Positions 5,504-30,670 of a DNA stretch of 30,670 nt are shown one piece after another. The notes beneath the pieces were generated by a model, which ran no database searches, was not told the origin of the DNA, and saw nothing but the letters and a program-made list of their open reading frames with translations. This DNA comes from a virus. The position numbers were made by a program, and so were the translations under genes. The stretch covers positions 1 to 30,670 of IMG/VR virus record IMGVR_UViG_3300008116_000432. The stretch is one strand, 5' to 3'. Each line of letters starts with the position of its first letter. Positions within the stretch are counted from its first letter, which is position 1.

Positions 5504-8500
5504 ATGCTCAAGAGTAAAAGATTTGCTACCGGTTTAGACAAAGTTTATAATCAAATCCCTATACAGGACACATCTTTATTATCGACTGATTATTTCCGAT
5601 TATTCGATATACCAGAACGTCTGTATTTAGGAAAAAACGCATTCCGTATACGTGCAAATTCGAATACACTTGTTAAGTCATCACTTATCTATATCGATAT
5701 AATAGATGCTGCAGGTAAAACAGTATTCCATGAAGTTGTCAATTTTATTGGAGAAGACGACGCACGATTGATCGTTGCACATATATACGAAACAACTACA
5801 CCTGGTGAAGCGACAATATACATCGCTGGTAGGGCATCGGTCGATGTTAGAAATGGAAATGAACTCGCATATAGTAGAGATGCCAGTAGTTCAGATTTTA
5901 TCGATAATCCGAATCTTATATGGTCAAAACGTATAATCATAATTCCGAATATACAAAATAGTACCGAATTAATTTTCGCTTCGCCGCCCATAGTTAGAGC
6001 GACTGAGAGACGTGAGAGATATTACGCCTTCGACACCGATCCTCGTGACCGTAGAAAGGTAGTCACTGGTTCATTTAAACTTTCTACAACCTCACCCGGT
6101 GTTGAATACAAATATAGTGATACACTAAAAGGTGCAGTTCGAGTAAGTGAGATCGATGAAAATATAATTTACGATCCGAAAGTTGGTCCGAACTATTTCG
6201 AATCGAGTCAGGATCTAATTTCACCGTTTAAAGACATTAGTGTTATCTATGATGCAGGTGGTAGTTTCGATGAACAATATGTCGGAGGTACTCTTGTCGT
6301 AAAAGGTTTGACAAATCAATTAGGTTTAGACAAACAGACCATAGTTTCATTAGGTGGTACTGTACCGGCATATAGTTGCAGCGTACTCGAAGTGATGGAT
6401 GCGAAAACTGCAAAAGTATATCCTCCATTCCGATTCGATTATGTAAGAGACGGTCAAACGAACTCTGTAAAAAAGTTTTTCGATATACAAAATGTGACTG
6501 CAAGTTATTATTCAACAGAAGACGCACAGTTGTCGCAAGTTGCAAGTGAATCTTTTGTACAATTAGATTTTTTCAATTTACAACCTATTGCAGGTGATGC
6601 GGACAAAGTTCGTATAAGTTATAAACCGTTCGGGTCATTCGGCGAATTCCGTGACATTGGTGAATATAAAATAAAAACGCAGGATTTCTTAGTATCAGAG
6701 CAAATCGACCGAACTAAAATCGAGTTTGTTGAAAAATCGGTCGGTAAGTTTAAAACAGCAGCTGAATTCACGCAATACTGGCAATATGTAAACGGCTCTA
6801 AAAAAATAACGCCTGTAAACTCTGTGATATTTAATAATCAGGGTACTGCGTTGTCTGCATCATATACAAGTTCTATAGTTACCGATTATGATTATTATGT
6901 GCGACCTTACCTATCGATTAATGCAGTTGAAAATACTGAATTCAAATTGACCGTGACAACAAACGGCGCAGAATCTCTGAATTCGAATACCCCACAAATC
7001 GATATTTTTATATCAGGTTCAGATGTTGTTACAAATATACTGAATCTCAAAAATGTTAGAGAACCGATAAAGGCGCCTCTATTAGGATCGTATTTAGCAT
7101 CAGTATCAGAAATCAGTACACCAGAATCGAAAAAGTTCGAATTCTATTTTAGAGTAGGGTCGACCCGTGCTATACGTCCTGTATTCGCATTTAGAGATTG
7201 CGATATTGTCAATATAAAAAATATAACAGTTCAACCTCGTAATGAAAGAGGATATTCACCTAATCAGGCACGACTGATATTACCGTTATCGTCATTTGAA
7301 ACAAATACCGAACTTGTTTTGAATATCGACTATTATACAGAGAACGGTATAAAATCAAGAATATTCACTCAATTATATGGTGTATATTTTCAAGGATTTG
7401 GTATACGTAGAGATCTTCTATCAGAAAATGATGTAATACAATCAATCTCAGGAAGTAGTTCAGATACAAAAACACGATTTCTAATATTATCAGGGAGTTA
7501 TAATAATTTAAAACAAGATTTTGAAATATTCACAGGGTCAGTAAACATACAAGGTGTACAAGGCCCTCAAGGCACAATTGGTTCACAAGGCACTACTGGA
7601 ACACAAGGCACAATTGGTTCACAAGGTACAACCGGTACACAAGGTACAACCGGTACACAAGGTGTACAAGGTCGACAAGGTACAATCGGTACACAAGGCA
7701 CAATTGGTTCACAAGGCATAATTGGTACACAAGGTGTACAAGGTCGACAAGGCACTACTGGAACTCAAGGCACAACCGGTACTCAAGGTACAACCGGTAC
7801 ACAAGGTGTACAAGGTCGACAAGGTACAATCGGTACACAAGGTACAATTGGTTCACAAGGCACTTCTGGTACAAATGGTACTACTGGAACTCAAGGCACA
7901 ATTGGTTCACAAGGCACTTCTGGTACAAATGGAACAACCGGTACACAAGGTACAATTGGTACACAAGGTACACAAGGTACTCAGGGTCATCAAGGCACAA
8001 CCGGTACACAAGGCACCGTAGGTTCTCAAGGCACCTCTGGTACAAATGGAACAACCGGTACACAAGGCACAATTGGTACCCAAGGTACACAAGGTACACA
8101 AGGTCATCAAGGCACTATAGGTACACAAGGCACTGTAGGTTCTCAAGGCGCCTCTGGTACAAATGGTACAACAGGCAGTCAGGGTACACAAGGTACACAA
8201 GGTCATCAAGGTACAATTGGTTCACAAGGCACTACTGGAACTCAAGGTACAATCGGTACACAAGGTGTACAAGGTCGACAAGGTGCAACTGGAACTCAAG
8301 GTACAGTAGGCGAAACTGGAGCCGCAGGCACAACCGGTACACAAGGAACGATTGGTAGTCAAGGCGTTATAGGTACACAAGGTACACAAGGTACACAAGG
8401 CCATCAAGGAACAATTGGTTCACAAGGAACTAAAGGTGATACCGGGTCTCAAGGCACTCAGGGTACACAAGGTCGGCAAGGTACTACTGGAACACAAGGT

Positions 8501-9454
8501 ACAGTAGGTGAAACTGGTGCAATGGGTACTACCGGTACACAAGGAACTATTGGAAGTCAGGGTACCGTAGGATCTCAAGGAACACAAGGAACTATCGGTT
8601 CCCAAGGAACTAAAGGTGACACTGGCGATATTGGTACACAAGGCACTCAGGGTACACAAGGACGACAAGGTACAACCGGTACACAAGGAACTATTGGAAC
8701 TCAAGGTGCTTCAGGTACAACTGGGGATACCGGTTCACAAGGAACAATTGGTTCACAAGGAACCGTAGGATCTCAAGGAACACAAGGTACAACGGGTTCA
8801 CAAGGAACTAAAGGTGATACCGGGTCTCAAGGAACTCTTGGTACACAAGGAACACAAGGCACTCAAGGTCGTCAAGGAACTAAAGGTGACACTGGCGATA
8901 TTGGTACTCAAGGCGTACAAGGAACAACAGGCTCTCAAGGAACTAAAGGTGACACTGGCGATATTGGTACACAAGGAACCCAAGGCACTCAAGGTCGACA
9001 AGGTACAACCGGTACACAAGGAACTATTGGAACCCAAGGTACGCAAGGTACTCAGGGTACACAAGGAACGCAAGGTATTATCGGTTCAACAAACTTTCCA
9101 CTTGTATTCGATTGGTCAGGTACTGGAACACCTTCAACCGAAGCGGCCGATGTAGCAGAATGGAAATATGTAGTTGAAAATGTAACAATCTATTCAGCAT
9201 CACTATCAGCAAAAAATTTACCGAGTGGCGGCCCATTTGTAATGAAAGCCTTGAAATCAACAAACGGTGGTGCTACATTTTCAGGTACGATAGTTACAGT
9301 ATCATTACCGGATGCCGGCTTCCTTTATTATGCAGTCACAGGTTCCCGAGCAGGTCAAACTACTCTTAGTAAAGGAGATCTATTACGATTAGATACCGGT
9401 GTAGTTAACGGTGCGTCAGATTGGTCTTTTCAACTGTATACTAAAAAGACCTAA
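5504..9454 (+). CDS. Long virion fibre protein with 170-triplet collagen-like shaft
   Basis: This encodes 1316 residues. Residues 1-683 are non-repetitive and beta-rich, presumably the virion-attachment and proximal part. Residues 684-1193 are an uninterrupted run of 170 Gly-X-Y triplets (GTQGTTGTQG and similar), broken only in composition by GRQG, GHQG and charged GTKGDTG units. The last ~123 residues form a compact distal domain (FPLVFDWSGTGTP... to the C-terminal LYTKKT), probably a trimerisation or receptor-binding tip. Collagen-like triplets in phage fibres form trimeric rods. The K-G-D pattern is a known stabilising salt-bridge arrangement in collagens. An AAAGGT lies about 15 bases before the ATG, so the ribosome site is weak. 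It lies alone between DNA-metabolism genes and the NMNAT-like gene. Fibre versus whisker versus head decoration cannot be told. Confidence 0.8.
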   Translation: MLKSKRFATGLDKVYNQIPIQDTSLLSTDYFRLFDIPERLYLGKNAFRIRANSNTLVKSSLIYIDIIDAAGKTVFHEVVNFIGEDDARLIVAHIYETTTPGEATIYIAGRASVDVRNGNELAYSRDASSSDFIDNPNLIWSKRIIIIPNIQNSTELIFASPPIVRATERRERYYAFDTDPRDRRKVVTGSFKLSTTSPGVEYKYSDTLKGAVRVSEIDENIIYDPKVGPNYFESSQDLISPFKDISVIYDAGGSFDEQYVGGTLVVKGLTNQLGLDKQTIVSLGGTVPAYSCSVLEVMDAKTAKVYPPFRFDYVRDGQTNSVKKFFDIQNVTASYYSTEDAQLSQVASESFVQLDFFNLQPIAGDADKVRISYKPFGSFGEFRDIGEYKIKTQDFLVSEQIDRTKIEFVEKSVGKFKTAAEFTQYWQYVNGSKKITPVNSVIFNNQGTALSASYTSSIVTDYDYYVRPYLSINAVENTEFKLTVTTNGAESLNSNTPQIDIFISGSDVVTNILNLKNVREPIKAPLLGSYLASVSEISTPESKKFEFYFRVGSTRAIRPVFAFRDCDIVNIKNITVQPRNERGYSPNQARLILPLSSFETNTELVLNIDYYTENGIKSRIFTQLYGVYFQGFGIRRDLLSENDVIQSISGSSSDTKTRFLILSGSYNNLKQDFEIFTGSVNIQGVQGPQGTIGSQGTTGTQGTIGSQGTTGTQGTTGTQGVQGRQGTIGTQGTIGSQGIIGTQGVQGRQGTTGTQGTTGTQGTTGTQGVQGRQGTIGTQGTIGSQGTSGTNGTTGTQGTIGSQGTSGTNGTTGTQGTIGTQGTQGTQGHQGTTGTQGTVGSQGTSGTNGTTGTQGTIGTQGTQGTQGHQGTIGTQGTVGSQGASGTNGTTGSQGTQGTQGHQGTIGSQGTTGTQGTIGTQGVQGRQGATGTQGTVGETGAAGTTGTQGTIGSQGVIGTQGTQGTQGHQGTIGSQGTKGDTGSQGTQGTQGRQGTTGTQGTVGETGAMGTTGTQGTIGSQGTVGSQGTQGTIGSQGTKGDTGDIGTQGTQGTQGRQGTTGTQGTIGTQGASGTTGDTGSQGTIGSQGTVGSQGTQGTTGSQGTKGDTGSQGTLGTQGTQGTQGRQGTKGDTGDIGTQGVQGTTGSQGTKGDTGDIGTQGTQGTQGRQGTTGTQGTIGTQGTQGTQGTQGTQGIIGSTNFPLVFDWSGTGTPSTEAADVAEWKYVVENVTIYSASLSAKNLPSGGPFVMKALKSTNGGATFSGTIVTVSLPDAGFLYYAVTGSRAGQTTLSKGDLLRLDTGVVNGASDWSFQLYTKKT
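7553..9085 (+). repeat. Collagen-coding tandem repeat tract 1
   Basis: About 1.5 kb of imperfect 9- and 18-base units of the type CAAGGTACAACCGGTACA encodes the Gly-X-Y shaft of the 5504 gene. Third-codon positions vary (GGT, GGC, GGA) while Gly-Thr/Ser-Gln-Gly is kept, so selection acts on the protein. Larger blocks recur, such as the segments coding GTSGTNGTTGTQGT near 7860 and 7910, pointing to growth by internal duplication. Confidence 0.9.
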
Positions 9455-9486: not shown

Positions 9487-11886
9487 ATGGGTAATATCAT
9501 CGTAACATATGTAGGTAGATTTCAACCTTTTCACAAAGGGCATTATGCGACCTATATGCATCTTGTCAAGAAATTCGGAAAGGCGAATGTTTATATCGGA
9601 ACCTCAGATAAAGTAGAATTACCGAAATCGCCATTCGATTTCAAAGATAAAAAAACCATAATAACATCGATGTTCGGTATACCGAAGACGCAAGTGGTAC
9701 AGGTAAAAAATCCGTACCGGCCTATTGAAATTCTGAACGATTATGATGAAGACTCGGATATATTGATAACGGTTGTCGGTGAAAAAGACTCCGGCCGTTT
9801 AGGCGGTAAATATTTTTTGCCGTACACTGGTAACACTGATTTATTGCCGTTTAAACAACAGGGCTACGTGTATGTTGCTCCATCACTACCGAATGCGATA
9901 AGTGGTACTGATGTAAGAGATTGGCTTAGTATATCTGATGAAAACAACGCTAAATTGAATTTCGAAAAAGCGTATCCGAATTTCGACAAGCGCATATACG
10001 ATTTGATACGATCGAAACTCAATGTGATGAATGAAATGGCTAAGGCCGATTTAGATTCTGTGGAAAAATTCGCCGATACGAATTTAGCTCCATACGATTT
10101 CGAATTTGGTAGAGAAATCGATCATTTTTTTCAACGATTGAACGATCCAAGAAACGGCAAAGAAATTTCGTATGCGGAAATGATCGGGTTCTTTAAACGT
10201 CTCATTAGAAATAGAGCAGCGTTCGATGAATTCACTAAAAAATATTTGGAATTTGTAATTACGGATAAAAGAACAAATATCAATATACCGTTTAAAACAC
10301 AGGCGAATCGATTAATCGCAAAAACAATTATGCGAAAGCCGGCATTTAAGTCACCGGATCCTGTGTTAAATATTGAAACAGTAAAAAAAGTCGGTGACGA
10401 CTGGGTAGTGTATCCTAAAAAGGGTGGTAAACGATTAGGTACCCATGATACTAAAAAAGCGGCAATAAAACAACTGCAAGCGATTGAAATAAACAAAGAA
10501 TCGGTAGAGGATACAAAGAACGAACTCCGTAAATTAGAATCGGAGAGAAATCGTTTGTTTTCGGCACTGATGAAAATGTTTCCGAATTCACCAAAACAAA
10601 TAAAAGCTAAAGCCGAATTAGATTCTATAATGTCTAAAATAAAAAAATTGCGTACAGAAGCCTTAACCGAAAATATAATACTTGAAGGTGGTGCATATGG
10701 TCATATGGCACACCCATTCGATATCGACATGAATTTAACATTTGGCGATCTCAAACAAATTGTAAAGTCAGCATTAACTGGCGAACTCGAATTAGCCCGT
10801 GAGAAAACAGATGGTCAGGCACTTGCGATAAGTTGGAAAAATGGTGCATTGATTTCTGCAAGAAATAAAGGTCACTTAGTAAACGCAGGTGAAATGGCAA
10901 TGACTGAGCAAGATCTCATCGATAAATTTGCAGGACGTGGTGCATTATCGGATGCGTTTACATTTGCAATAAAGGATTTAAAATCTGCAATAATACAATT
11001 ATCTAATGCGGAACGCGAATCGATATTCAAAGAGGGTAAAGCGTTCATGAATTGCGAAGTGATATATCCTGAAAATACAAATGTCATTCCATATGGGCAA
11101 TCGCTTTTAGTATTCCACGGTACAATGGAATACGATGAACGAGGGAATCCGATAAGCGAAGATCCTCAAGCAGGTTTTAAACTTGCCGATATGATCGAAA
11201 AGGTAAATGCCAATATTCAAAGTCGTTTTAAATTACAAGGACCTCCTGTACAAACTTTACCGAAGAGTCAAGATCTAATGGCGAAACAACCTGATTATAT
11301 TACTAAGATATCGAAACTGCAAAAAGAATTCGGATTAAACGATGCGAATGGTGTTGAAGACTATCATCAAGCATGGTGGGAACAATGGATCAATAAAAAC
11401 GCTCCGAAAGATTTGTCACCAGATATACGTGACGGTTTAGTTAAACGATGGGCGTTTTTCGATAAGTCGTTCCGATTAAATCAGATCACCGATCCTGACA
11501 TCCGTCAATGGGCCGAAAAAACAGATAAACTCGACTACCAGAAAATTTCAAAAACAAATCTTATGAAATTCGAAGAAATATTTTTAGGCGTTGGCGCCGA
11601 TGTACTTTCCTTCATGTCATCGGTACTTGTTGTAAATCCTGAAGAGGCGAAACGTGATATTGTCGACAAACTTAAAAACGCGATATCTTCAATACGTGCA
11701 ACTGGTGATGCTAAAAATTTAATTAAACTCGAATTGGAATTGAAGCGACTCGAATCATTAGGTGGTTTTGAAAAGATTGTACCTAATGAGGGCATTGTAT
11801 TTAATTATAAAGGTAGTACATATAAACTGACCGGTGCGTTTGCACCGTTAAATCAAATAATGGGCGTGTTTACATTTACACGTTAA
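9487..11886 (+). CDS. Fusion: NMNAT-like nucleotidyltransferase plus ligase-like (KxDG) domain
   Basis: This encodes 799 residues in at least three parts. Residues 1-150 are an HIGH-family nucleotidyltransferase: G10-RFQPF-H16-K-G-H19 and I138-S-G-T-D-V-R144, the NMNAT/NadR-type ATP-binding motifs. Residues ~300-335 (WVVYPKKGGKRLGTHDTKKA) resemble a short module I associate with phage head proteins, and a coiled coil follows. Residues ~403-799 look like a polynucleotide ligase/capping-type nucleotidyltransferase. Motif I is E-K440-T-D442-G443; a motif III-like segment has E524 (MNCEVIYP) and VFHG at 542-545; motif IV is E768-G-I-V-F; motif V is K780-L-T-G. About 220 helical residues separate motifs III and IV, longer than usual. 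L-T-E395 and I-L-E400 at the junction resemble gp21 cleavage sites. The family assignment of the first domain is firm; the ligase reading is my inference from motif order. Confidence 0.75.
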   Translation: MGNIIVTYVGRFQPFHKGHYATYMHLVKKFGKANVYIGTSDKVELPKSPFDFKDKKTIITSMFGIPKTQVVQVKNPYRPIEILNDYDEDSDILITVVGEKDSGRLGGKYFLPYTGNTDLLPFKQQGYVYVAPSLPNAISGTDVRDWLSISDENNAKLNFEKAYPNFDKRIYDLIRSKLNVMNEMAKADLDSVEKFADTNLAPYDFEFGREIDHFFQRLNDPRNGKEISYAEMIGFFKRLIRNRAAFDEFTKKYLEFVITDKRTNINIPFKTQANRLIAKTIMRKPAFKSPDPVLNIETVKKVGDDWVVYPKKGGKRLGTHDTKKAAIKQLQAIEINKESVEDTKNELRKLESERNRLFSALMKMFPNSPKQIKAKAELDSIMSKIKKLRTEALTENIILEGGAYGHMAHPFDIDMNLTFGDLKQIVKSALTGELELAREKTDGQALAISWKNGALISARNKGHLVNAGEMAMTEQDLIDKFAGRGALSDAFTFAIKDLKSAIIQLSNAERESIFKEGKAFMNCEVIYPENTNVIPYGQSLLVFHGTMEYDERGNPISEDPQAGFKLADMIEKVNANIQSRFKLQGPPVQTLPKSQDLMAKQPDYITKISKLQKEFGLNDANGVEDYHQAWWEQWINKNAPKDLSPDIRDGLVKRWAFFDKSFRLNQITDPDIRQWAEKTDKLDYQKISKTNLMKFEEIFLGVGADVLSFMSSVLVVNPEEAKRDIVDKLKNAISSIRATGDAKNLIKLELELKRLESLGGFEKIVPNEGIVFNYKGSTYKLTGAFAPLNQIMGVFTFTR

Positions 11887-12256: not shown

Positions 12257-12898
12257 ATGGCAAGGTTACAAAATGTTAAAGCAGTTCGTGAGATGCTTGA
12301 AGGTAAACATCGAACTCAAACACGTACAAAAATTGGTTTCACCGATGCTGATGTAGCGAGTGAGAAATCGAAACGCCGTGAAGTTGGAGAGACTTGGGAA
12401 GAGAAAGATTCGAATGGTGATGTTATTGCAGTATGGGAACAGAAGAACGGATATCGTGTACGCAGTGGTGTGCATAAAGAAGCCGTAGAGGAGATACGTG
12501 AATACTTGAATTCGTATCCGAACTGTTTACCTAATTGTCGTACAAAGGTGTACACGAAATTAGATAAGCGATTCCGTGCAAAATTCGGTAGATGTGCAGA
12601 CTGCCAATTTCGTATCGAAACCAAAATGAAACAAGAAGGTAAATTTAAAGAGTACGAGCGTGAGCAGATGATGCGTAACGCCGAAGCGTTTTTCAAACAG
12701 GCCGATAAAGAGATCGACATAACTTACGAACAAATTGCCGGCGAATCTCACTTTGTGAATAGCGACGGGCGAATCGAAGTTTGGAATGGGGACCGAACAC
12801 ACGCAGAAAAAATGCGTGAAGAATACCATGAATTTAAAAAAATCGCGTTACAAAAAATACAAGAATATAATGGAAACACAACAAAAGTCTCAGAGTAA
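12257..12898 (+). CDS. Four-cysteine (putative zinc-binding) phage protein
   Basis: This encodes 213 residues. Cysteines C90, C94, C113 and C116 (PNCLPNC and CADC) are spaced like a zinc-binding site. Around them lie a basic segment (KVYTKLDKRFRAKF) and a long charged C-terminal helix. A short beta-type segment (GDVIAVWEQKNGYRVRSG) precedes the cysteines. It starts 15 bases after the previous stop without a Shine-Dalgarno, and its 3' end overlaps the next gene by 29 bases. Its place two small genes ahead of the large terminase would suit a small terminase or DNA-binding packaging factor. However, I see no helix-turn-helix and do not recognise the family, so the function is open. Confidence 0.7.
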   Translation: MARLQNVKAVREMLEGKHRTQTRTKIGFTDADVASEKSKRREVGETWEEKDSNGDVIAVWEQKNGYRVRSGVHKEAVEEIREYLNSYPNCLPNCRTKVYTKLDKRFRAKFGRCADCQFRIETKMKQEGKFKEYEREQMMRNAEAFFKQADKEIDITYEQIAGESHFVNSDGRIEVWNGDRTHAEKMREEYHEFKKIALQKIQEYNGNTTKVSE

Positions 12899-13594: not shown

Positions 13595-15190
13595 ATGTCA
13601 GAAAAACAACCGAACATACGTGATATTGTAACCCAAGAACTTGCACGATGTAGTGTCGATTATAATTATGCGATAAAAAAATACTGCAAGATCGAACACC
13701 CTATTCAGGGCAAAATTCCGTTTCAACTATTCCCGTTTCAAACACGGGCCCTTGAAGAAATAATATCGCATAAATTCAATATAATATTGAAGTCCCGTCA
13801 AATGGGAATTTCAACACTGGTTGCTGCATATGCTTTAATGAATATGCTTTTCCGTGAAAACTACAAAGTACTCGTAATCGCAACAACACAAGATGTTGCA
13901 AAGAACCTTGTACATAAAGTAAAGGTAATGAATACGAACTTGCCGTCATGGATGAAAACGCGTGTAGTAGATGATAATAAACTACAATTATCATTCGCAA
14001 ACGGTTCAACAATTAAAGCTGTATCATCCTCACCAACAGCAGGACGTTCCGAAGCACTTTCACTATTGATTATAGATGAGGCTGCATTTGTTGACAACAT
14101 CGATCGTATTTGGGCATCGGCACAGATGACATTAGCTACAGGTGGAGATGCAATATTATTATCGACTCCAAATGGTGTAGACAACTTATTTCACCAATTA
14201 TGGGTCGATGCAGAAATACAAAAAGCACCAGACGGTTTAGATCCGTTTAATCCGATAAAACTTAATTGGGATCTACATCCTGAACGAGATCAAAAATGGC
14301 GTGACCAACAGACTCTCCATTTAGGTGAAAGAATGGCGGCACAGGAATGTGACTGCGACTTTTTGACATCAGGTCATTCGGTTATTGAAGGTGATGTTTT
14401 AAAATGGTACAACGAAAACATGGTTACCGATCCATTAGAACGCAGAGGGATCGATGGCGATTATTGGATATGGAAATATCCTGATTATACACGATCTTAT
14501 GTTGTATCGGTAGACGTTGCTCGTGGCGATGGTGCCGACGATTCTGCAATTGAAGTTTTTGATGTCGAATCGATGGAACAAGTTGCCGAGTATATTGGAA
14601 AAGTATCGCCACGAGATTTAGGTAGAATGGCGGTATCGATCGCAACCGAATACAACACGGCAATGCTTGTAATTGAAAATAAAAATATCGGTTATGATAC
14701 TGTACAAGAAGCGATCGACATGAATTATTCGAATATTTTTTATAGTTACAGACAGGATGTATATGTCGATCCGATAAAACATATTTCGAAAGGATACGAT
14801 TTGAAATCGAAAAAGGATATGGTTCCTGGTTTCACAACAACTACCGCAAATCGTCCAATGATCGTATCAAAAATCGAGCGATATTTCAATGAAAAACTAA
14901 TTATAGTAAGGTCGAAGAGGCTAATATCACAATTGCTTGTTTTTGTATGGCTAAACGGTAAAGCACAGGCAAGACCAGGCCGTAAAGACGATGCAGTATT
15001 ATCGACAGGTATTGCGTTATTTGTTCGTGATACTGCACTGAAACTACGTGAGATTGGTTTAGATATGACCAGAAAAACATTACAACATATGCACAAACGA
15101 GTGTATACACCGAATGCGAATGGGGATAATTCAAAATGGACAATGGATGACGGAAAAGGTAATACTATATCGACACGGTGGTTACTATAA
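13595..15190 (+). CDS. 17: Terminase large subunit (T4 gp17-like packaging motor)
   Basis: This encodes 531 residues, a little shorter than T4 gp17 (610). The ATPase domain shows a Walker A-like S67-R-Q-M-G-I-S-T74, Walker B L157-L-I-I-D161-E162 and coupling motif S190-T-P-N-G194. The RNase H-fold nuclease shows the acidic residues D307 (VSVDVARGDG), E361 (LVIENKNIG) and D465-D466 (GRKDDAVLS), matching the spacing of the gp17 catalytic triad. It translocates DNA into the prohead through the portal and cuts the concatemer. The start has no Shine-Dalgarno. The gene sits 12 bases before the portal gene; in T4 the sheath and tube genes (18, 19) lie between these two, so that part of the order differs. 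Confidence 0.93.
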   Translation: MSEKQPNIRDIVTQELARCSVDYNYAIKKYCKIEHPIQGKIPFQLFPFQTRALEEIISHKFNIILKSRQMGISTLVAAYALMNMLFRENYKVLVIATTQDVAKNLVHKVKVMNTNLPSWMKTRVVDDNKLQLSFANGSTIKAVSSSPTAGRSEALSLLIIDEAAFVDNIDRIWASAQMTLATGGDAILLSTPNGVDNLFHQLWVDAEIQKAPDGLDPFNPIKLNWDLHPERDQKWRDQQTLHLGERMAAQECDCDFLTSGHSVIEGDVLKWYNENMVTDPLERRGIDGDYWIWKYPDYTRSYVVSVDVARGDGADDSAIEVFDVESMEQVAEYIGKVSPRDLGRMAVSIATEYNTAMLVIENKNIGYDTVQEAIDMNYSNIFYSYRQDVYVDPIKHISKGYDLKSKKDMVPGFTTTTANRPMIVSKIERYFNEKLIIVRSKRLISQLLVFVWLNGKAQARPGRKDDAVLSTGIALFVRDTALKLREIGLDMTRKTLQHMHKRVYTPNANGDNSKWTMDDGKGNTISTRWLL

Positions 15191-26675: not shown

Positions 26676-29600
26676 ATGCCAAATTGGAAAAAAGTAATCG
26701 TATCGGGTTCCGATGCGCGTTTAAATAGTCTATTTGTAACAAACGCAGTTACAGCCTCGTATGGAAAGTTCACGAAAGGTGCAACTCTTACAGGGTCCTT
26801 ATTAGTAACACAATCGCACATTTCCACTGTCGATTATATCGATTTCACTACGACAGCTACTCCTCCATTTTTAACTGGAAGGCTCCAATGGATCGACGAC
26901 ACTAAAACTTTAAATATCGATACCGATATTAATGGTTTTTCAATTGAAATCGGTCATCAAAATGCAGTTAGGGTACGCAATACAAACCCGTTTACACTTA
27001 CTAAAGGAATAATTGTCTATATTAATGGTGAGAGTGGTCAGAGACCGACCGTAGCTACGGCAAGTTGGACAGATGATACAGATTCAGCGACAACTTTAGG
27101 ATTTGTAGCACAAAATATATCTACGAATGGCACCGGTTATGTTATAACAAACGGACTGATACGAGGCATAAATACCACAGCATTCGTACCAGGAACGATG
27201 TTATATTTATCGGCAAGTGGACAATACACATCGACTATTCCAATAGCACCTTTCCATGGTGTAAGATTAGGCCGAACAATCACACAGGCAGTTGATGGTA
27301 CGATTTATGTGAACGTGATAAATGGTTATGAACTAGGTGAACTACATGATGTATTAGAAATAAACAGGAAAAACGGCGATTTAATAATTTTTGATAGCAG
27401 TTCAAGAGTTTATAGAAATTCAAAAATACTATCAGGATCGTACGGAGTTTCCGGTTCTTTAAATATTTCGCAAGGCCTGACAGGTAGTACTGCGAAATTC
27501 ACTGCAATACCTAATGGTACAAACGAAACAAATGTTCTTGTTTTAGACGGAACAGGAAATGTAAAATACAGAACCAATTTAAGTTTACAAGGCACACAAG
27601 GAACACAAGGAACACAAGGTACTATTGGTTTACAAGGCACACAAGGAACCGTAGGAAGTCAGGGTACTACGGGTTCTCAAGGTACACAAGGAACACAAGG
27701 TCGACAAGGCACACAAGGTATCACTGGTTCACAAGGAACCGTAGGTTCTCAAGGTACTATTGGTAGCCAAGGCACACAAGGAACTCAGGGTACTACGGGC
27801 TCTCAAGGCACGATTGGTTCACAAGGAACCGTAGGATCTCAAGGAACACAAGGTACTACTGGGTCTCAAGGAACAATTGGTACTACCGGTAGCCAAGGCA
27901 CTCAAGGTACTCAGGGCTCACAAGGCACACAAGGTACTACCGGTTCACAAGGTACAATCGGATCTCAGGGTACTATAGGTACACAAGGCACACAAGGTAC
28001 TCAAGGTACTACGGGATCCCAAGGTACAATTGGTACGACCGGTTCACAAGGTACCTTAGGATCGCAAGGCACAATTGGTTCTCAAGGCACTCAGGGTACA
28101 CAAGGCCGACAAGGTACTACTGGAAGTCAGGGTACCCAAGGCACAACGGGTTCACAAGGAACTACGGGTTCACAAGGAACGCAAGGAACTCAGGGCTCAC
28201 AAGGCACACAAGGCATCACTGGGTCTCAAGGCACAACGGGTTCACAAGGTACAATTGGTAGCCAAGGTATACAAGGAACTCAGGGTACTACGGGTTCTCA
28301 AGGTACACAAGGCACAACGGGCTCACAAGGTACAATTGGTAGCCAAGGAACTATTGGTTCTCAAGGTACACAAGGCACACAAGGAACTCAGGGTACTACG
28401 GGCTCTCAAGGCACGATTGGTTCACAAGGTACCGTAGGAAGTCAAGGAACAATTGGAAGTCAGGGTACTATTGGTAGCCAAGGAACTATTGGTTCTCAAG
28501 GTACCGTAGGATCGCAAGGAACTATTGGTAGCCAAGGAACTCAGGGTATTACGGGTTCTCAAGGAACTATTGGTACACAAGGAACACAAGGTATCACCGG
28601 TTCTCAAGGTACTATTGGTAGCCAAGGTATACAAGGAACTACAGGTTCCCAAGGTACTATTGGTAGCCAAGGTACACAAGGAACTACAGGTTCCCAAGGT
28701 ACGATTGGTACTACGGGTTCACAAGGTACCGTAGGATCTCAAGGAACACAAGGAACTCAAGGTACCGTAGGAAGTCAAGGAACTATTGGTTCTCAAGGTA
28801 CACAAGGCACACAAGGTCGGCAGGGTACAACGGGCTCACAAGGAACGATTGGTTCACAAGGTACAACGGGTTCACAAGGCACACAAGGTACTGTCGGTTC
28901 ACAAGGTACAACGGGTTCACAAGGCACAATTGGTACAACTGGAAGTCAAGGAACTCAGGGAACTACGGGTTCACAAGGAACTATTGGCAGCCAAGGTACA
29001 CAAGGAACTACGGGCTCTCAAGGTACTATTGGTTCTCAAGGAACGCAAGGCACTCAGGGTACACAAGGCACTACTGGATCTCAAGGTACTATTGGTACAA
29101 CTGGAACACAAGGTACCGTAGGTAGTCAGGGTACGATCGGTTCTCAAGGCACACAAGGTACAACGGGTTCACAAGGAACTCAAGGTCCACAAGGCATCAC
29201 TGGGTCTCAAGGTACTACCGGTTCACAAGGAACAATTGGTTCACAAGGAACCGTAGGATCTCAAGGAACACAAGGTACTACCGGTAGCCAAGGAACCGTG
29301 GGAAGTCAGGGAACGATTGGGTCTCAAGGAACACAAGGTGTGCAAGGTCGACAAGGAACACAAGGCACACAAGGTATCACTGGGTCTCAGGGTACAATAG
29401 GAAGTCAAGGAACTATTGGTAGTCAGGGAACGATTGGTAGTCAAGGAACACAAGGTACACAAGGCACACAAGGTACTACCGGTTCACAAGGTACAATCGG
29501 CAGTCAAGGAACAATTGGTAGCCAAGGAACAATTGGTTCACAAGGCACACAAGGTACCGTAGGATCTCAAGGTACTATTGGGTCACAGGGTACACAAGGC

Positions 29601-30670
29601 ACTACGGGTTCACAAGGAACCGTAGGTTCTCAAGGTACAATCGGCAGTCAAGGAACAATCGGCAGTCAAGGAACACAAGGAACTCAGGGTATTACGGGTT
29701 CACAAGGTACTATTGGGTCTCAAGGAACAATTGGTAGTCAGGGTACTACGGGCTCTCAAGGAACCGTAGGTTCTCAAGGTACAATCGGCAGTCAAGGAAC
29801 ACAAGGCGTACAAGGTCGACAAGGAACCCAAGGAACTACGGGCTCTCAAGGCACAATAGGTTCACAAGGTACAATTGGTAGTCAAGGAACGCAAGGAACT
29901 CAGGGTATTACGGGTTCTCAAGGTACACAAGGTACTACCGGTAGCCAAGGTACAATTGGTTCGCAAGGCGCAACGGGTTCACAAGGGACAGTTGGTTCAC
30001 AAGGAACAATTGGTACAACCGGTAGCCAAGGAACTCAGGGTACACAAGGCACTACTGGATCTCAAGGTACAATTGGTTCACAAGGAACGCAAGGTATCAC
30101 TGGGTCTCAGGGTACAATAGGAAGTCAAGGAACAATTGGTAGCCAAGGAACAACGGGTTCACAAGGTACTATTGGTAGCCAAGGTACACAAGGAACCGTA
30201 GGAAGTCAGGGTACTACGGGTTCTCAAGGAACCCAAGGCACACAAGGTCGACAAGGCACAACCGGTACACAAGGAACTATTGGAACCCAAGGATCTCAAG
30301 GCACACAAGGTATCACTGGGCCTCAGGGTACAATAGGAAGTCAAGGAACTATTGGTTCACAAGGAACGCAAGGTACACAAGGTATCACTGGGTCTCAGGG
30401 TACAATAGGAAGTCAAGGAACCGTAGGTTCTCAAGGTACAATCGGTTCACAAGGAACGCAAGGAACTCAGGGTACTACGGGTTCACAAGGAACTATTGGT
30501 ACACAAGGCACAACGGGGTCTCAAGGAACAGTTGGAAGTCAGGGTACACAAGGCATAACGGGCTCTCAAGGAACACAAGGTGTGCAAGGTCGACAAGGAA
30601 CCCAAGGAACAACTGGAAATATAAGCAATTATACGTTAGACGGTAATTTTGCGATAAACTATACACTGAC
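26676..30670 (+). CDS. Giant collagen-like fibre protein, C-terminus beyond the window
   Basis: This frame is open from the ATG to the window edge, so 1331 codons are visible. Residues 1-305 are the N-terminal part. W4-K-K-V-I-V-S-G-S matches the 24996 fibre anchor, beta-rich segments follow, and NVLVLDGTGNVKYR near residue 290 matches the repeated motif there. Residues 306-1314 are one continuous Gly-X-Y tract (about 336 triplets, mainly GTQGTT, GSQGTI, GSQGTV), roughly twice the shaft of the 5504 fibre. It lacks the charged KGD units seen in that fibre. After the tract begins a distal domain (NISNYTLDGNFAINYTL...) which is cut off. AGGGA precedes the start. A long trimeric rod presenting a receptor-binding tip is the likely form. 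Confidence 0.85.
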   Translation, partial: MPNWKKVIVSGSDARLNSLFVTNAVTASYGKFTKGATLTGSLLVTQSHISTVDYIDFTTTATPPFLTGRLQWIDDTKTLNIDTDINGFSIEIGHQNAVRVRNTNPFTLTKGIIVYINGESGQRPTVATASWTDDTDSATTLGFVAQNISTNGTGYVITNGLIRGINTTAFVPGTMLYLSASGQYTSTIPIAPFHGVRLGRTITQAVDGTIYVNVINGYELGELHDVLEINRKNGDLIIFDSSSRVYRNSKILSGSYGVSGSLNISQGLTGSTAKFTAIPNGTNETNVLVLDGTGNVKYRTNLSLQGTQGTQGTQGTIGLQGTQGTVGSQGTTGSQGTQGTQGRQGTQGITGSQGTVGSQGTIGSQGTQGTQGTTGSQGTIGSQGTVGSQGTQGTTGSQGTIGTTGSQGTQGTQGSQGTQGTTGSQGTIGSQGTIGTQGTQGTQGTTGSQGTIGTTGSQGTLGSQGTIGSQGTQGTQGRQGTTGSQGTQGTTGSQGTTGSQGTQGTQGSQGTQGITGSQGTTGSQGTIGSQGIQGTQGTTGSQGTQGTTGSQGTIGSQGTIGSQGTQGTQGTQGTTGSQGTIGSQGTVGSQGTIGSQGTIGSQGTIGSQGTVGSQGTIGSQGTQGITGSQGTIGTQGTQGITGSQGTIGSQGIQGTTGSQGTIGSQGTQGTTGSQGTIGTTGSQGTVGSQGTQGTQGTVGSQGTIGSQGTQGTQGRQGTTGSQGTIGSQGTTGSQGTQGTVGSQGTTGSQGTIGTTGSQGTQGTTGSQGTIGSQGTQGTTGSQGTIGSQGTQGTQGTQGTTGSQGTIGTTGTQGTVGSQGTIGSQGTQGTTGSQGTQGPQGITGSQGTTGSQGTIGSQGTVGSQGTQGTTGSQGTVGSQGTIGSQGTQGVQGRQGTQGTQGITGSQGTIGSQGTIGSQGTIGSQGTQGTQGTQGTTGSQGTIGSQGTIGSQGTIGSQGTQGTVGSQGTIGSQGTQGTTGSQGTVGSQGTIGSQGTIGSQGTQGTQGITGSQGTIGSQGTIGSQGTTGSQGTVGSQGTIGSQGTQGVQGRQGTQGTTGSQGTIGSQGTIGSQGTQGTQGITGSQGTQGTTGSQGTIGSQGATGSQGTVGSQGTIGTTGSQGTQGTQGTTGSQGTIGSQGTQGITGSQGTIGSQGTIGSQGTTGSQGTIGSQGTQGTVGSQGTTGSQGTQGTQGRQGTTGTQGTIGTQGSQGTQGITGPQGTIGSQGTIGSQGTQGTQGITGSQGTIGSQGTVGSQGTIGSQGTQGTQGTTGSQGTIGTQGTTGSQGTVGSQGTQGITGSQGTQGVQGRQGTQGTTGNISNYTLDGNFAINYTL
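27591..30617 (+). repeat. Collagen-coding tandem repeat tract 2
   Basis: This 3,027-base tract is an unbroken series of 9-base units of the CAAGGTACTATTGGTTCA kind, giving about 336 Gly-X-Y triplets without a frame break. Synonymous changes are frequent. Longer blocks recur, such as those coding GVQGRQGTQGT and GITGSQGTIGSQGT, so copy number probably changes by recombination. Confidence 0.9.

Follow-up and report, generated by a model that had tools for sequence, protein, structure and literature searches.

A protein of 799 residues encoded by a T4-like phage joins two enzymes in one chain: an NMNAT-like nucleotidyltransferase at the N-terminus and, beyond a variable middle, a ligase-like domain at the C-terminus. 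The C-terminal domains of this protein and its relatives form a new RNA-ligase-like clade that almost always has an NMNAT-like enzyme as its partner, and RNA repair is the likeliest role of the whole protein, a reading in which about even confidence is placed. The ligase family is apparently large and undescribed, and to our knowledge no description of an NMNAT-ligase family has been published. The initial annotation of the sequence had stated that no described enzyme combines the two domains. This agrees with the literature searched, as the accessible parts of surveys of phage RNA repair, NAD systems and polyvalent proteins make no mention of such a fusion; the combination is however frequent in nature. 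That annotation overlooked that the two-domain pair is common, not unique, and that separate exchangeable modules make up residues 184-343.

The open reading frame lies at 9487..11886 on the plus strand (translated without a stop) of the window, by which we mean the whole stretch of DNA analysed, a viral record 30,670 bases long. The gene content of the window is T4-like: primase, SbcCD-like nuclease, collagen-like tail fibre, the NMNAT-ligase reading frame, terminase, portal, head maturation protease, a scaffold-like acidic protein and the major head protein. Eight other IMG/VR contigs hold an identical copy of the reading frame, and the closest named relatives, judged by the terminase, are Microcystis phage Mel-JY01 (52%) and the Flavobacterium phages 'immuto' (50%). 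Both signatures, noted earlier as lying in one chain, are indeed found in the single 799-residue frame, each motif at the place first given for it (HKGH at residues 16-19, ISGTDVR at 138-144, KTDG at 440-443, E524, EGIVF at 768-772 and KLTG at 780-783).

The ligase-like covalent nucleotidyltransferase domain occupies residues 395-799 (10669..11883, +), on the evidence of AlphaFold2, Foldseek and an alignment of 81 such domains, which are 33-69% identical to the window copy. The catalytic motifs are invariant or nearly so. Motif I reads EKTDG (residues 439-443, 10801..10815, +), with E, K, D and G kept in 81/81 and K440 as the predicted adenylylated lysine. It is followed by a candidate motif Ia, RNK (residues 459-461, 10861..10869, +; R in 81/81, N and K in 80/81), and by the motif III glutamate E524 (11056..11058, +; 81/81). 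Motif IV is EGIVF (residues 768-772, 11788..11802, +), where E, G and F are kept in all 81, and motif V is YKLTG (residues 779-783, 11821..11835, +), where the same holds for K, T and G. Invariant columns number 34 among the 405 positions of the alignment, and all seven residues named in the initial annotation fall in them (P = 1.6e-8 if the columns were scattered at random), including K440, E768 and K780 (81/81 each), whose conservation it had proposed as a check. A further conserved region, GHMxHPFD..LTFGDLK, stands ahead of motif I, with H/HPF invariant.

The fold of this domain, the other check proposed at the outset, is modelled by AlphaFold2 with confidence (pLDDT 89.3, pTM 0.83, from 78 sequences). 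In a Foldseek search against the PDB, which rests on residues 395-799 with residues 1-394 taking no part in it, archaeal Rnl3 comes out on top (E 1.6e-3, prob 0.90; no match falls below E=1e-3) and RNA ligases fill the first 17 places, their types being Rnl1, Rnl2, Rnl3 and Naegleria, with T4 Rnl1 and T4 Rnl2 among them. Listed beside these is an Aquifex protein labelled 'putative ATP-dependent DNA ligase'; DNA ligases and capping enzymes rank below the RNA ligases. The TM-scores of the matches are about 0.2-0.27, and these scores and the E-values are modest most likely because a helical insert of about 200 residues splits the ligase core. The insert, which had been singled out from the sequence as unusual, is real: in the model, residues ~561-763 (11167..11775, +), between the motif III/IIIa strands and motif IV, are helical throughout. 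Matches came only from the structure search, as the sequence profile of the ligase alignment finds nothing in the PDB, and Pfam, PHROGs and NCBIfam give nothing reliable for the ligase part of the window protein.

The modelled fold favours an RNA ligase over a capping enzyme or a DNA ligase. The domain shares its fold and motifs I, III, IV and V with T4-type Rnl1 and Rnl2 and archaeal Rnl3, and the EKxDGQN of the window family resembles the motif I of Rnl2-type enzymes, EKxHGTN. It differs from them in the ~200-residue helical insert, in the short stretch of ~16 residues that follows motif V, in the fusion to an NMNAT-like domain and in the missing Pfam RNA_ligase match (PF09414), which is absent from the window protein and found in one family member at E=0.0042. 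DNA ligases and capping enzymes have an OB-fold after motif V, whereas the model of the window domain has only a C-terminal helix there. The fold and the motif invariance together support the initial proposal that a HIGH-type nucleotidyltransferase is fused to a genuine member of the ligase superfamily.

The pairing is widespread and takes many forms. Two scans of IMG/VR give at least 584 and at least 587 confirmed matches to the ligase-like domain; in an annotated phage collection of 50,697 records the close form occurs three times only, in Mel-JY01, LR756508 and LR756500. Hundreds of aquatic phages encode the family without annotation, and an NMNAT-like enzyme almost always accompanies it. 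Among the matches listed, 71 of the 81 5'-complete ligase-like reading frames have the NMNAT-like domain as part of the same chain, nearly always with the ligase-like domain at the extreme C-terminus and with a spacing between the two domains that ranges from 13 to 1240 residues. The order is reversed, ligase first, in L012, L013, L344, L351 and L352. The last two are just 24-26% identical to the query and are still paired, so the association of the two enzymes is old. Exceptions to the fusion include neighbouring reading frames (L087, L175), frame breaks (L029, L102) and solo ligases (L016, L083, L084, L098). L352 itself (5998-8406), a divergent ligase-NMNAT fusion flanked by masked runs of N, comes from a WOR-3 MAG chromosome, where the assembly probably contains a provirus or phage DNA at this locus. 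A chain of Flavobacterium phage immuto_182 (L021, 12088-14811) combines a pol-beta-like nucleotidyltransferase (identified by eye), an NMNAT-like domain and metallopeptidase motifs; it has no ligase-like domain, and its gene shares the neighbourhood, with a homologue of window 12257-12898 close by.

A possible divergent counterpart exists in cyanophages. The protein of S-PM2d138 consists of DUF6267 (PF19782; 1.6e-111) followed by CTP_transf_like, the ligase-like part coming first, and in P-SSM4, S-SSM4 and ACG-2014e DUF6267 and a 'cytidyltransferase' are overlapping adjacent genes. The link is drawn from a structural match between the window ligase-like domain and the S-PM2 protein (E=6.7e-5) and from motif order, which in DUF6267 (K[WIM]DG, QxD, EG, K) is that of the window family; the profile comparison of the two families by hhalign is not significant (E 0.13, prob 0.4%). 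Both have the KxDG...EG...K order, a large middle stretch and a HIGH nucleotidyltransferase partner, and they differ in that the cyanophage parts are in reversed order or in two adjacent genes. The S-PM2 counterpart gene is located among replication genes. Its protein is covered to at least 80% in one place by 201 phage records, and through DUF6267 the ligase family may be present in most T4-like cyanophages. No mention of DUF6267 was found in the literature searched.

The middle of the chain is built of exchangeable modules. In the window protein, residues 184-298 (10036..10380, +; phrog_23027, phrog_14518 and family alignments) form a module with the pattern HFxxR..DxRN ... AKTxMRK, which is shared by many family members and turns up in further phage proteins. 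This module is possibly a RegB-like RNase; one relative alone matches REGB_T4, weakly (E=0.0056), and the AlphaFold2 model is poor (pLDDT 46). Residues 296-343 (10372..10515, +) form a small DUF2188-like module (WVVYPKKGGKRLGTH; phrog_3684 3e-13, DUF2188 E=0.0033, below the cut-off). A Pfam scan of 87 relatives finds modules for RNA ends in the same chains, namely an AAA_33 kinase in 18, a CCA-adding enzyme in 4 (best 3.6e-30), HD in 3 and RNase_T in 1, along with DUF5661 (22), NUDIX (1), a zinc protease and ParB_N. What Pfam calls AAA_33 may be a kinase of the zeta-toxin type, not a polynucleotide kinase, and the kinase module has no match in the PDB. According to PMC7824862, the usual partners of ligases in phage RNA repair carry out kinase, 3'-end nucleotidyl transfer and phosphatase steps. 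It is mainly because RNA-end modules share the chains of relatives, a case of guilt by association, that RNA repair is preferred. The initial suggestion of RNA or DNA end repair is accordingly narrowed by these modules towards RNA, with the qualification that they occur in a minority of chains and that the window copy has none. Short modules also recur in the variable parts (GDTxLxGRFKNKK, DLYTDENP, SVPYGSGYKK and DDGPxTFY, in L108, L110, L114, L155 and others), GDTxLxGRFKNKK being found in 41/81 chains; they are possibly packaging or binding modules.

The reading frame is best understood, with middling confidence, as a multi-enzyme RNA-sealing protein of a T4-like phage, probably one for tRNA repair, coupled to an NMNAT-like enzyme. 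The C-terminal domain would be a new branch of the covalent nucleotidyltransferase superfamily working as an RNA ligase: K440 would take AMP and pass it to the 5'-phosphate of an RNA, and the domain would then seal the adenylylated 5' end to a 3'-OH. The N-terminal domain would act as an NMNAT-like HIGH adenylyltransferase, and the exchangeable end-processing modules (in relatives a kinase, a CCA-adding enzyme, HD and a 3' exonuclease) would work around or between the two. The whole protein would probably repair RNA cleaved by the host, for example tRNA, that is, damage from host defences, and the NMNAT-like part may keep up the level of NAD+, or of another adenylylated metabolite drawn on in this conflict. 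The fixed pairing poses the question of whether RNA sealing is coupled to NAD+ chemistry in phages. If it is, a single protein would unite RNA repair with NAD+ restoration, both counter-defence themes, and a new RNA ligase of unusual domain architecture would be gained.

What the N-terminal domain does within such a protein depends on how far its likeness to NMNAT extends. Residues 2-182 (9490..10032, +; Pfam, PDB and NCBIfam matches) constitute a HIGH-superfamily nucleotidyltransferase, probably active and most like NMNAT, with archaeal, NadM-type NMNATs as its closest relatives. In HKGH (residues 16-19, 9532..9543, +) the second histidine is invariant in 78 relatives and the first is not; in ISGTDVR (residues 138-144, 9898..9918, +) S, G, T and R are kept in 100% of them, and GRxQP is also conserved. 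With a profile of seven family sequences, the PDB matches include the NMNAT structures 2qjt (1.7e-6) and 1f9a (9.9e-6), and all matches at E<=0.001 are nicotinamide-nucleotide adenylyltransferases. Pfam CTP_transf_like scores 20.5 bits in the window protein, just under the cut-off of 21, and passes the cut-off in relatives. The NCBIfam NMNAT models match at 1e-7, yet with 31 bits against cut-offs of 127-449. The pattern D...N..W, which binds NMN/nicotinamide in archaeal NMNATs (NadM), is not apparent in the alignments with MJ0541 and with the 78 relatives. The domain thus shares GRFQPFHxGH and SGTxxR with NadM and NMNAT-Nudix enzymes but scores far under the curated cut-offs, shows no NMN-site residues and is fused to a ligase-like domain instead of to Nudix or a kinase. 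NMN is a putative and doubtful substrate, and the NMN-specific NMNAT of the initial annotation is not upheld, nor does any evidence support its suggestion of NAD-type capping.

The same low scores and unaligned nicotinamide site favour a tentative alternative, in which the domain is another HIGH-superfamily transferase, acting for example on an RNA end or a different phosphate ester, with no role for NAD; the best match of the distant member L351, a pantetheine-phosphate adenylyltransferase, also speaks for it. Against it, the significant PDB matches and best NCBIfam matches of the window protein are all nicotinamide-nucleotide enzymes, SGTxxR and the second histidine of HxGH are invariant, and one family member has a NUDIX domain, as NadM enzymes do. 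Phage NAD+ salvage by NadV with NadM or NadR, as described in PMC9503650, likewise involves a phage-encoded NMNAT-like enzyme. It differs in that NadV occurs in only 2/15 records of relatives and not at all in the complete Mel-JY01; this NadV/NAMPT check covered the records of 15 relatives, the window's own genome being a fragment. Elsewhere in the window, a GIY-YIG-like reading frame (924-1370, +) matches phrog_447 'NAD synthetase' (9e-38) and several homing-endonuclease families, and its homologue in Flavobacterium phage immuto carries the same label. The label looks like a misannotation and gives NAD metabolism no support here.

The place of the gene is fixed. The terminase large subunit (13595..15190, +; phrog_2 7.5e-43 in the window) is found 0.5-5.7 kb further down the same strand in 120 of the 121 informative loci, defined as those with at least 3.5 kb of downstream sequence. 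Between the two genes lies a 213-residue protein with conserved cysteines (12257..12898, +), which has a homologue nearby in 154/167 loci and no Pfam or PHROG match; it is a candidate small terminase or packaging factor. In most chains of the NMNAT-ligase family a similar N-terminal leader, M..L..FLVE.ILxE, precedes different following domains, and we take this leader to resemble T4 capsid-targeting sequences. The terminase proximity and shared leader suggest that the protein is packaged in the virion, as for polyvalent proteins (PMC5512222). The protein may be a polyvalent protein that is injected with the DNA, its enzymes acting at the start of infection and its hypervariable, shuffled middle serving as exchangeable cargo, a reading that we entertain with some reserve. 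Polyvalent proteins are described as virion-embedded and multidomain (PMC5512222, PMC9503650), and the window protein is likewise a long multidomain phage chain with exchangeable enzymatic domains among packaging genes; it differs from them in that its family nearly always keeps two fixed enzymes, a combination not found in the accessible part of PMC5512222. Against packaging, the leader is missing from the window copy, many marine members have LLM in place of the protease-like (L/I)xE site that precedes the ligase domain, and the S-PM2 counterpart sits in a replication region. Prohead-protease cleavage before the ligase domain, between (L/I)xE and GG, was considered and rejected, the site being LLMGG in those members. 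Delivery in the virion is compatible with the RNA-ligase explanation, and the confidences given to the readings overlap because both this one and a non-NMNAT first domain fit an RNA-ligase role.

Within the preferred reading of an RNA ligase, it is unlikely that the cofactor is NAD+, with the fused NMNAT-like domain rebuilding NAD+ from the released NMN and ATP so that the cofactor recycles itself. Such a cycle would explain the lasting pairing of two otherwise unrelated enzymes in every arrangement, and the GHMxHPFD..LTFGDLK stretch preceding motif I might have been added to bind the cofactor; the scarcity of an NMN-supplying NAMPT gene, missing from most phages checked, also fits. The phage would then seal RNA and hold NAD+ constant where host defences deplete it. 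However, the LigA adenylation domain with Ia (PF01653) is not recognised in the window protein, known phage RNA ligases use ATP, and the NMNAT-like domain shows none of the residues that make NadM specific for NMN.

No less unlikely is a DNA ligase for phage replication or recombination to which an NMNAT-like domain is attached. Among the records of relatives, PF01068 is found in 0/15 and PF01653 in 1/15, with neither in the 190-kb Mel-JY01; as that genome, deposited as complete, has no recognisable DNA ligase, such a role is possible, and the position of the S-PM2 counterpart among replication genes agrees with it. It is opposed by the structural ranking of RNA ligases over DNA ligases, by the absent OB-fold after motif V and by the RNA-end modules in the chains of relatives, which favour RNA as the probable substrate.

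A part in fibre assembly, like that of T4 gp63 (an RNA ligase and tail-fibre attachment catalyst), was considered, as the reading frame follows a collagen-like tail-fibre gene at a distance of 32 bases and the structural matches include a split Rnl1/tail-fibre attachment protein, and is rejected as very improbable, since an adjacent upstream fibre gene is found in just 1 of the 68 relatives with enough upstream sequence, that one being of the same virus lineage.

The window contains two collagen-like tail-fibre regions with GTQG-type repeats, at 5504-9454 and at ~28000-30500, the second of which extends to the contig end. Directly upstream of 9487 there is no T4-like late promoter TATAAATA. 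An element (G/A)ATATTTAT(A/T) recurs 20-35 bases before several starts (upstream of 621, 11930, 17099 and 23785) and is possibly a late-promoter element of this phage group.
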